Source: Komagataeibacter saccharivorans (GTDB taxonomy: Bacteria; Pseudomonadota; Alphaproteobacteria; Acetobacterales; Acetobacteraceae). From it: a stretch of DNA of 64,000 nucleotides. Below, piece after piece: positions 14,765 through 18,295 of this stretch (positions within the stretch are counted from its first letter, which is position 1; each line of letters begins with the position of its first letter). Under the pieces are notes generated by a model. It worked only from the letters and a program-made list of their open reading frames with translations. It was not told where the DNA came from and made no database searches. A program made the position numbers and the translations under genes. Location of the stretch: contig NZ_NKTY01000015.1 in the NCBI RefSeq assembly GCF_003207825.1, forward strand, positions 1 to 64,000, written 5' to 3'.

Positions 14765-16699
14765 ATGCCTGCCATAACCCTGCCTGACGGATCCGTTCGC
14801 CGCTTTGACGGGGCAGTGACGGGCACTACCGTGGCGCAGTCCATTGGTGCGGGCCTTGCGCGCGCCGCCCTTGCCATGGAAGTGGACGGTAAGCTCATGG
14901 ATATCGGCCGCGCGGTCGATCATGACGCCCATGTCCGTTTCATCACCCGCAAGGACCCCGAAGCGCTGGAAATGATCCGCCACGACGCCGCCCATGTGCT
15001 GGCCGAGGCGGTGCAGTCGCTGTTTCCCGGCACGCAGGTCACGATCGGCCCGTCCATCGAAAACGGCTTCTATTACGATTTCTACCGCAACGAACCCTTC
15101 ACGCCGGAAGATTTCGCCGCGATTGAAAAGCGCATGGGCGAAATCGTGGCCGCGAACGAACCCTTCGTGCGCGAAGCATGGCCGCGTGATCAGGCCATCG
15201 AATTTTTTGAGGCCAAAGGCGAGCGCTTCAAGGCCGAGCTGATCCGCGACCTGCCCGAAGACGAGGAAATTTCCATCTACCGTCAGGGCGAATGGCTGGA
15301 CCTGTGCCGTGGGCCGCATCTGCGTGGCACGGCTGACGTGGGGAATGCTTTCAAGCTGATGAAGGTGGCGGGCGCCTACTGGCGCGGCGATCATCGCAAT
15401 CCCATGCTGACGCGCATTTACGGCACGGCATGGCGTGACCGTAAGGAACTCGAAGCTCACCTGCATCAGCTTGAGGAAGCCGAACGGCGCGATCATCGCC
15501 GCATTGGCCGGGAAATGGACCTGTTCCACATTCAGGAAGAAGCCGTGGGCCAGATCTTCTGGCATCCCAAGGGCTGGCGGCTGTATTCGGTGCTGCAGGA
15601 CTATATGCGCCGCGCCCAGAACGGCAACGGCTATCAGGAAGTGCGCACCCCGCAACTGGTTGACCGTGGGCTGTGGGAAGCATCCGGCCACTGGGACAAA
15701 TACCGCGAGCACATGTTCATCGCCACGGTCGAGGACGAGGACAAGACCCTCGCACTGAAGCCGATGAACTGCCCATGCCATGTGCAGATCTTCCGCCATG
15801 GGCTGCGTTCGTATCGCGAACTGCCGCTGCGTATGGCGGAGTTTGGCGCCTGCCACCGTTACGAACCGTCGGGCGCGCTGCATGGCATCATGCGTGTACG
15901 TGGCTTTACGCAGGATGACGCGCACATCTTCTGCACGGAAGACCAGATTGCGGATGAGACCGCCCGTTTCGTGCGGATGCTGTCCGATGTGTATCAGGAT
16001 CTGGGCTTCGAGCATTTCCGCGTGAAGTTTGCCGACCGTCCCGAACAGCGCGCCGGTGATGACGCGACATGGGACCGCGCCGAAAACGCGCTGAAGGTTG
16101 CCTGTGACATGGCGGGCGTTGCCTATGAACATAATCCGGGCGAGGGTGCCTTCTATGGCCCGAAACTGGAATTCGTGCTGCGCGACGCCATCGGCCGTGA
16201 CTGGCAGTGTGGCACATTGCAGGTGGATTACGTTCTGCCCGAACGGCTCGATGCCTCCTATGTCGGTGAGGACAGCGCCCGCCACCGGCCCGTCATGCTG
16301 CATCGGGCCATCCTTGGTTCCTTCGAACGGTTCCTTGGCATCCTGATCGAACAGCATGCCGGTCGCTTCCCGCTGTGGCTGGCTCCGGTGCAGGTGGTCG
16401 TGGCCTCGATCGTGACCGATGCGGCGGAATACGCGCAGCATGTAACCGATACCCTGCGCGCGGCGGGGCTGGTTGTTGAAGCCGACCTGCGGAACGAGAA
16501 GATCAACGCCAAGGTCCGCGAGCACAGCCTTGCCCGCGTGCCGGTCATCCTGGTGGTCGGGCGCAAGGAAGCGGAAGAAAACACCGTCGCCATGCGCCGC
16601 CTTGGCGGCAAGGCGCAGGACGTGCTGCCGCTGGATGAAGCGGTGTCCGCCCTTGCATATGAGGCCCTGCCACCCGATATCCGGCGTGCGCGCGGCTGA
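14765..16699 (+). CDS. thrS: Threonyl-tRNA synthetase
   Basis: A 644-residue class II synthetase. It has an N-terminal TGS domain (residues 1-60), the second editing domain with [11 protein letters not shown] near 77, the catalytic core with [10 protein letters not shown] (zinc Cys336) and the class II motif 3 region [13 protein letters not shown], then an anticodon domain. Length matches E. coli ThrRS (642). It is followed after 185 bases by infC, the classical thrS-infC order. A GGAG lies ten bases before the ATG. Confidence 0.98.
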
Positions 16700-16897
16700 A
16701 AGCGCATTCCCGTGCCGTGACTGCATGGCTGTTTTCACGGCTGCCGGGCAAGACAGTACTTGATCTGGGGCGCATCTTTGCGTCACATATCTTCCATAAT
16801 GCAAGGTCATTCCCTGCCCGCGCGTTTTCGGTGGCTCCGGCCCCCGGCGCGTAGGCATGCGGGATGGCCCTGCCTGCCGTTTGAATGAAACAGTTAC

Positions 16898-16902
16898 AGG
16901 AG
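16898..16902 (+). promoter_or_regulatory. Shine-Dalgarno sequence that sets the infC start at AUA
   Basis: AGGAG at 16898-16902 is the only strong ribosome site near the infC start. Six bases separate it from the AUA codon at 16909. The in-frame ATG at 16885 lies upstream of it and has no ribosome site, and the next ATG (16924) is 21 bases downstream of it with none of its own. Confidence 0.75.
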
Positions 16903-16908
16903 CTGACC

Positions 16909-17445
16909 ATAGCCAGACCCCCCATGCCCACTCCGCCGAACCGAGAGGGCCCCCGTGTCAATGAAGAGATCCGCGTACCGCAGGTGCGTCTGATCGACGA
17001 AGAGGGCGAGATGCTTGGCATCATGTCCACGCGTGATGCACTGGCACGCGCTTATTCTGTCGGGCTCGACCTGCTCGAAATCAGCCCGAACGCCGAACCG
17101 CCCGTGGCCAAGGTCCTTGACTACGGCAAGTTCAAGTACGAGCAGCAGAAGAAGCGTAACGAAGCGCGCAAGAAGCAAAAAGTCATTGAAATCAAGGAAG
17201 TCAAGGTTCGTCCGAACATTGATGAAAATGATTATCAGGTCAAAATGCGCGCGATGAAGACCTTTATCGGCGAAGGGGACAAGGTGAAGGTGACCCTTCG
17301 TTTCCGTGGCCGTGAAATGGCGCATCAGGATCTGGGTGTGAAGGTTCTCGAACGCATTCGGGCCGAGATGGACGAACTGGCCAAGGTTGAGCATATGCCC
17401 AAGCTTGAAAACCGCCAGATGATCATGGTGCTGGCCCCGCGCTGA
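16909..17445 (+). CDS. infC: Translation initiation factor IF-3, probable AUA start
   Basis: A 178-residue IF-3 with the N-terminal [17 protein letters not shown], a lysine-rich linker and the C-terminal domain [14 protein letters not shown] through [11 protein letters not shown]-3 prevents subunit joining and rejects wrong start codons. The best start is AUA at 16909, encoding (f)M-ARPPMP: the sole strong ribosome site, AGGAG, is six bases upstream. The in-frame ATG at 16885 precedes that site, and ATG 16924 is too far from it. E. coli infC uses AUU for autoregulation, so a rare start here fits the same logic. A strong terminator follows directly, so rpmI and rplT are not downstream as in many bacteria. 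Confidence 0.94.
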
Positions 17446-17475
17446 AGCGCCCGGTTTTCGGTCCATGAAATGAAT

Positions 17476-17509
17476 AAAGGCCCGTGAGAGATACTCTCCG
17501 GGCCTTTTT
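17476..17509 (+). terminator. Intrinsic terminator of infC
   Basis: GGCCCG (17479-17484) pairs with CGGGCC, extended inward by GAGAG/CTCTC and outward by AAA/TTT, and ends in TTTTT. It lies 30 bases after the infC stop, between convergent genes. The opposite strand has a weaker T-tail, so the main direction is plus. Confidence 0.88.
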
Positions 17510-17545
17510 CATATCCATCCCCGGCATGGGGATCTGGGTATTGCC

Positions 17546-18295
17546 CTATGGCGTCAGCAGCACGGTCGCGCGGGCGGTGGCTGTAACATCCTGCATCCCC
17601 GTGGGGGCGGATGGGGCCATCATGTCGGCGCTGGCGGCACGCGCCATCATCATGGGCATCGGGCGTGGCATGTCCTGATCGTCCAGCGAGACGGAGGCGA
17701 GGGATGAAATCTTCAGCTTCAGGGTATCGGCGGCGGCATGGGCGCGCTGCTGCATATCCTGTAGTGCGAGGGTTTCCGCCTGTCGGGTCAGTTCAGCCCG
17801 TTTTTTGCGCGATACCGACCAGTCAAGCCGCGTCAGCGCAAGGTTTTCCGCCTGCAACTGCCCGACCAGTGGCAGCAGCGTCTTGCCATCAGCCGCCGTC
17901 AGCCGGATGGTCTGGCGGGCGACCCATTGCGCCCTGCGGTTCTGACGGGTGTCGGCATCTTCATGCTGGACGAAATACGACTCGGCATTGACCGTCAGGT
18001 CCGGGGTCTGCGCGGCGGCGGATATGGCCTTGCCGATCAGTGAATTGACCTGTGCCTGCGCCGCCGCAGCAGTGTCCGCCCGGGATTCGGCAAAGAAGGT
18101 GGCGGTCAGTTGATCGGGCTGGGCCTGCACCGTACCCGATGCGGTCAGTTCAAGCCGGGTTTCGTCGGATGGGGCGGAGTCGGTGTTCGCACCGGTGCCC
18201 TGCGCCAGCGTTACGGCCGGATACAGGCTGGCGGCGGCCAGCAGGGCAGGAAGGGCATGGCGACGGGTAAGGGAACGAAAGCGTGTGAAAATCAT
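17546..18295 (-). CDS. SIMPL-domain (DUF541) exported protein
   Basis: A 249-residue protein with a signal peptide (basic RSLTRRH, hydrophobic ALPALLAAASLYPAV, cleavage near LAQG) and a DUF541/SIMPL domain starting RLELTASGTVQAQPDQLTATF. Family members are periplasmic or outer-membrane proteins of poorly known role, some linked to oxidative stress or outer-membrane integrity. The upstream open extension overlaps a neighbouring gene in another frame and is discarded. Its ATG overlaps the preceding small gene's stop by four bases, so the pair is co-expressed. Confidence 0.85.
   Translation of the reverse strand: MIFTRFRSLTRRHALPALLAAASLYPAVTLAQGTGANTDSAPSDETRLELTASGTVQAQPDQLTATFFAESRADTAAAAQAQVNSLIGKAISAAAQTPDLTVNAESYFVQHEDADTRQNRRAQWVARQTIRLTAADGKTLLPLVGQLQAENLALTRLDWSVSRKKRAELTRQAETLALQDMQQRAHAAADTLKLKISSLASVSLDDQDMPRPMPMMMARAASADMMAPSAPTGMQDVTATARATVLLTP

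Follow-up and report, generated by a model that had tools for sequence, protein, structure and literature searches.

The infC gene of Komagataeibacter saccharivorans, which encodes translation initiation factor IF3, raises the question of which codon is used for the start of its translation. Within the window (the whole 64,000-nucleotide stretch of DNA that was analysed), the 5' region of infC reads TTTGA ATG AAA CAG TTA CAG GAG CTG ACC ATA GCC AGA CCC CCC ATG CCC. A sequence-only reading had assigned the start to the ATA, located six bases downstream of the Shine-Dalgarno (SD) motif AGGAG, and had warned that automated tools would probably misplace it. Direct reading of the sequence confirmed both the spacing and the frame of this ATA, which is the IF3 reading frame, and the mechanical list of open reading frames, limited to ATG, GTG and TTG, indeed begins infC at the upstream ATG (Table 1).

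The product of this reading frame was identified as IF3 by a match to TIGR00168 at 245 bits (cut-off 60), and both IF3 domains, IF3_N and IF3_C, were detected with Pfam. A solved structure of E. coli IF-3 (chain 8jsg_A) aligns with residues 15-178, and the product shares 98% identity with its counterpart in K. xylinus K2G30 (L002). Within the genome, the exact string ACAGGAG-N5-CATAGC is unique to the infC site.

Table 1. Features of the infC start region and its upstream neighbour (positions in the window)
Feature	Position	Strand	Remarks
infC coding sequence (AUA start, IF3, 178 aa)	16909..17445	+	Profile, Pfam and structure match; residue 1 expected to be fMet
AUA start codon	16909..16911	+	Sequence; conserved at the homologous place in relatives
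SD AGGAG, within ACAGGAG 16896-16902	16898..16902	+	Gap to AUA of 6 nt
Upstream in-frame ATG, probably unused	16885..16887	+	Start chosen by the mechanical ATG/GTG/TTG ORF caller
Downstream in-frame ATG, probably internal Met	16924..16926	+	Without SD
thrS (threonyl-tRNA synthetase), upstream neighbour of infC	14765..16699	+	

The start region was compared among infC loci anchored by HMM with known strands, using a start caller that requires four or more bases of an SD core and then, after a gap of 4-11, any of seven possible start codons. The samples consisted of the genus, 80 named relatives, a family set of 66 loci from 150 order genomes, all belonging to the same family, a class set of 114 loci from 103 families (the better-scoring ones among the matches listed, with 189 matching genomes), and a phylum set of the best-scoring 26 new loci from 120 genomes. 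The named and the other locus sets overlap in species, and the class was taken to be Alphaproteobacteria as inferred from the named relatives. The homologous place was also printed and read by eye in all named relatives but L051 and L067. Three results of the caller were replaced by eye with a lower-ranked ATA at the conserved place (L006, ATC to ATA; L123, TTG to ATA; L221, ATG to ATA). The raw counts were ATA 64, ATC 6, CTG 9 and none 1 for the named relatives; ATA 55, ATC 6, CTG 4 and TTG 1 for the family; and ATA 69, ATC 21, ATT 7, ATG 3, GTG 1 and none 13 for the 114 class loci.

With the right frame, the caller gave a start in 19/19 genus, 79/80 named-relative, 66/66 family, 101/114 class and 26/26 phylum loci; with the two wrong frames, the corresponding values were 0/38, 11/160, 8/132, 9/228 and 5/52. 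The SD-linked start calls at infC exceed chance. As a control, ATG was called for rplT in 29 of 30 order genomes, the remaining one being uncalled. For thrS, 3 of 30 loci were not anchored; among the 27 anchored, ATG was called in 17 and nothing in 4, and ATC or ATT was chosen near a plain ATG in 6, indicating that the caller can prefer a non-AUG codon over AUG at longer spacing. Base conservation was measured on loci selected for a gap of 6, and the SD columns are thus partly conserved by construction and were left out of the evidence.

ATA was found at the infC site in all 19 genomes of the genus. After correction by eye, the 80 named relatives gave ATA in 65, CTG in 9 and ATC in 5, with one uncalled (L051), and the 66 family loci gave ATA in 56, ATC in 6 and CTG in 4. 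These ATA codons are linked to an SD. The proposal that infC starts at AUA was supported by the comparison. A search for a clear AUG in relatives, suggested beforehand as a check, detected AUG, GUG or UUG at the site in 0/80 named relatives and 0/66 family loci, and together with the genus in none of 165 loci (sets overlapping in species). In 79/80 named relatives and 66/66 family loci, four or more letters of the SD core precede the site at a gap of 6-9. The comparison shows that the site, its SD and a putative start codon outside AUG, GUG and UUG are conserved in the family.

Several features of individual relatives were observed along with this comparison. CTG takes the place of ATA in L027, L029, L030, L041, L044, L045, L046, L049, L050 and L113, with the same SD at a gap of 6 or 7, and these loci are mostly titled Roseomonas or close genera. 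The infC gene of Asaia astilbis (L051) is one base short near the start when compared with that of Asaia siamensis (L015), either by assembly error or by a real frameshift; the gene is frameshifted, yet the ATA site is intact and reads ACAGGAGACGACCATAGC. Two loci titled Nitrosovibrio and Acidobacteria (L020 and L074) carry infC of 80% and 77% identity to that of the window and group with the family in the IF3 tree, so that their titles may be wrong. The third codon of infC (16915-16917) is AGA in 52/79 named relatives, and AGA accounts for 8 of the 1225 internal arginine codons in the same genes; the conservation of a rare codon directly behind the start may serve to keep the site unstructured.

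If translation started at the upstream ATG, IF3 would begin with MKQLQELT, or with MQQLQELT in some relatives, and the AUA would be read as an internal isoleucine codon. This ATG is in the open frame, and an ATG is located at the same distance in 18 of the 19 genus genomes, but the same distance holds ATG in 2/79 named relatives and in 0/66 family loci. As stated in the sequence-only reading, it precedes the SD; its frame reads through AGGAG, it has no SD of its own, and the strong SD would fall inside the gene. In 60/79 named relatives, the stretch from the in-frame stop on the 5' side to the site is free of ATG, GTG and TTG. The gap between SD and codon also differs by one and two bases among relatives, and the gaps of 6, 7, 8 and 9 seen in the family indicate that the upstream sequence is not in-frame coding. 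Internal isoleucine codons of these infC genes are ATC 688, ATT 151 and ATA 12 (n=851), and those at the start site are ATA 65 and ATC 5 (n=70; Fisher p ~7e-81 for ATA at the site versus internal, shared descent being ignored). As an internal isoleucine position, the site should be dominated by ATC, but ATA is what is seen. A start at the upstream ATG is exceedingly improbable.

The downstream ATG was considered in the same way. Since the IF3 profile match begins 3' of this codon, translation from it would leave the IF3 core intact, and ATG is found at the equivalent place in 19/19 genus, 38/79 named-relative and 32/66 family loci. The other 41/79 and 34/66 loci, however, carry a different codon there, and the SD and a putative non-AUG start codon in the place of the AUA persist where this ATG varies. 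In the window the downstream ATG is preceded by AGACCCCCC, in agreement with the earlier observation that it is without an SD. From the upstream in-frame stop to the conserved IF3 core, ATG, GTG and TTG are all missing in 18/79 named-relative, 12/66 family and 41/98 class loci. We regard a start at the downstream ATG as very improbable, and AUA at 16909 as the probable start of infC is strongly supported by the comparison.

Other codons near the site might be used in some relatives. An ATG is located two codons before the site, directly after AGGAG without spacer, in L008, L047, L052, L056, L248 and L252. This ATG lies too close behind AGGAG for a normal start, and is of interest in Novacetimonas and Bombella. 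TTG occupies the same position in L265 and L267, and stands one codon 5' of the site at a gap of 4 nt in L065. The ATG of the six loci and the TTG of L065 could act as starts there. In L020, L022, L057, L058 and L060, GAGG is present just 5' of an ATG five codons into the gene, and a second, shorter IF3 could be produced from it in these five relatives; the infC starting at 16909 is without this GAGG.

Outside the family, one locus from each of 103 other class families gave ATA in 62, ATC in 18, ATT in 7, ATG in 2 and GTG in 1, with 13 uncalled. Some of the uncalled loci carry ATA (L199) or ATC (L177, L200 and L227) behind a weak purine run, and the remaining ones show nothing clear at the site. 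The comparison shows the same type of putative start, mostly AUA, in most of the class families sampled. The phylum set, composed of the best-scoring 26 new loci, gave ATT in 14, ATC in 8, ATA in 3 and GTG in 1, but two of the three ATA loci (L298 and L299) belong to the same class as the window, leaving 24 loci outside the class with ATT in 14, ATC in 8, ATA in 1 and GTG in 1 (L297). ATT was called at loci such as L281, of which the start region presumably reads like that of E. coli infC. As judged from these calls, AUA is the prevailing putative start in the sampled class, and AUU and AUC prevail among the phylum loci sampled outside it.

The history of the start codon was followed on an IF3 tree constructed by a quick method, with 74 of its 161 inner branches open. 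On this tree of 167 full-length rows, 166 of which have a called codon, a minimum of 18 start-codon changes is required. At least 12 changes are located in the class part, where the sole states among the 142 full-length rows are ATA 116, ATC 16 and CTG 10; the tree holds full-length loci only, and the shorter class loci, among them those with ATG, GTG and ATT calls, are absent from it. CTG needs two changes. Within the family, the replacements appear never to settle on AUG, GUG or UUG. That the codon wanders almost solely inside the set rejected by IF3 suggests that such rejection, and with it the self-limitation of IF3, has been selected for. With slightly better than even odds, the infC start of Alphaproteobacteria has been selected for IF3 rejection and not for one codon, with AUA prevailing and perhaps ancestral, AUC arising repeatedly, and CUG about twice, in Roseomonas-like lineages.

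IF3 had been supposed to discriminate against non-standard starts, and according to a review AUG, GUG and UUG escape the discrimination by IF3 and other triplets do not (PMC4611024). An increase in free IF3 would then lead to rejection of its own AUA, because IF3 destabilises 30S complexes whose start codon lies outside AUG, GUG and UUG, and the synthesis of IF3 would decrease; when IF3 is scarce, AUA would be tolerated and the synthesis would increase. This loop would be the AUU loop of E. coli infC with a different codon. Selection on IF3 sensitivity instead of on one codon would allow AUA, AUC, AUU and CUG to interchange, and would keep AUG, GUG and UUG rare. The codon set at the infC start fits autorepression by IF3, which it supports only indirectly. 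The stringency of IF3 may vary by lineage; in clostridia, AUA and similar starts are reported to be far more effective than in E. coli (PMC9680021).

AUA could also be the true start and yet set only a low, fixed output of IF3 without any feedback. A weak start could be kept merely to hold IF3 low, and in poor medium the output of three reporters with non-canonical starts in S. aureus was about 10% of that with AUG (PMC13009471). The output would, however, be lowered by GUG, UUG or a weaker SD as well, and the family site holds solely codons outside AUG, GUG and UUG. In E. coli, moreover, infC does show feedback, which is said to be abolished when AUU is changed to AUG. A fixed low output is unlikely. 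We instead favor, with a probability of roughly 0.8, the reading that infC is translated from the AUA at 16909 under AGGAG, with fMet placed first by the initiator tRNA and with self-limitation by IF3.

Other control elements were sought in the vicinity of infC. A structured leader was rejected as a candidate, since shuffled sequence folds as well as the segment 16860-16960 does (z 0.18). Rfam gave three matches, all far below their gathering scores, and the scan of 16650-17600 detected no sigma-70-like promoter (0.5 expected). Leader folding, Rfam and the promoter scan thus detected no further control element for infC. The terminator scan yielded two overlapping terminator-like sites at 16710-16729 against 0.9 expected. 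Just 3' of infC, the sequence GGCCCG...CGGGCC at 17479-17510 is followed by a T run and looks terminator-like by eye, but it is absent from the result of the terminator scan.

The textbook case of autogenous control by IF3 is E. coli infC with its AUU start (Butler 1987; Brombach 1987). The gene described here resembles it in that an IF3 gene carries an SD and, behind it, a start codon expected to be rejected by IF3, and also in having thrS just upstream. It differs in the use of AUA instead of AUU, and the feedback is a proposal here. The E. coli gene order is thrS-infC-rpmI-rplT. This order is not kept here, thrS being upstream and rplT on another contig (G000:C27:15436-15774), but the codon mechanism does not depend on it.

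An AUA start has been detected for S. aureus infC by Ribo-Ret, with autoregulation called likely (PMC13009471). The two cases share the gene, the AUA start and the proposed autoregulation, but S. aureus belongs to a distant phylum, and extended SD motifs are stressed for it, in contrast to the plain 5-base AGGAG here. The ATT start of Listeria monocytogenes infC is reported to be fixed in the core genome (PMC13068326); it is likewise a fixed non-canonical start, but is ATT and concerns one species. For a red-algal plastid, an ATA start is reported for dnaB and GTG for infC. No report of AUA or CUG infC starts in Alphaproteobacteria was found in the literature searched, mostly sources other than subscription journals and preprints. 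The AUA start of infC as such is already known from S. aureus, and it is the case of Alphaproteobacteria for which this literature yielded no earlier report.

A gene finder that accepts only ATG, GTG and TTG as starts would assign a wrong N-terminus to IF3 in such genomes, and AUA has rarely been noted in this role. If the start has been selected for rejection by IF3, the infC start codon would be a natural record of the codons against which IF3 discriminates in each lineage, and CUG would be a natural IF3-controlled start. The natural exchanges between codons rejected by IF3 open the feedback idea to tests in different lineages, and the probable self-control of IF3 by its start codon would be extended to much of a bacterial class.
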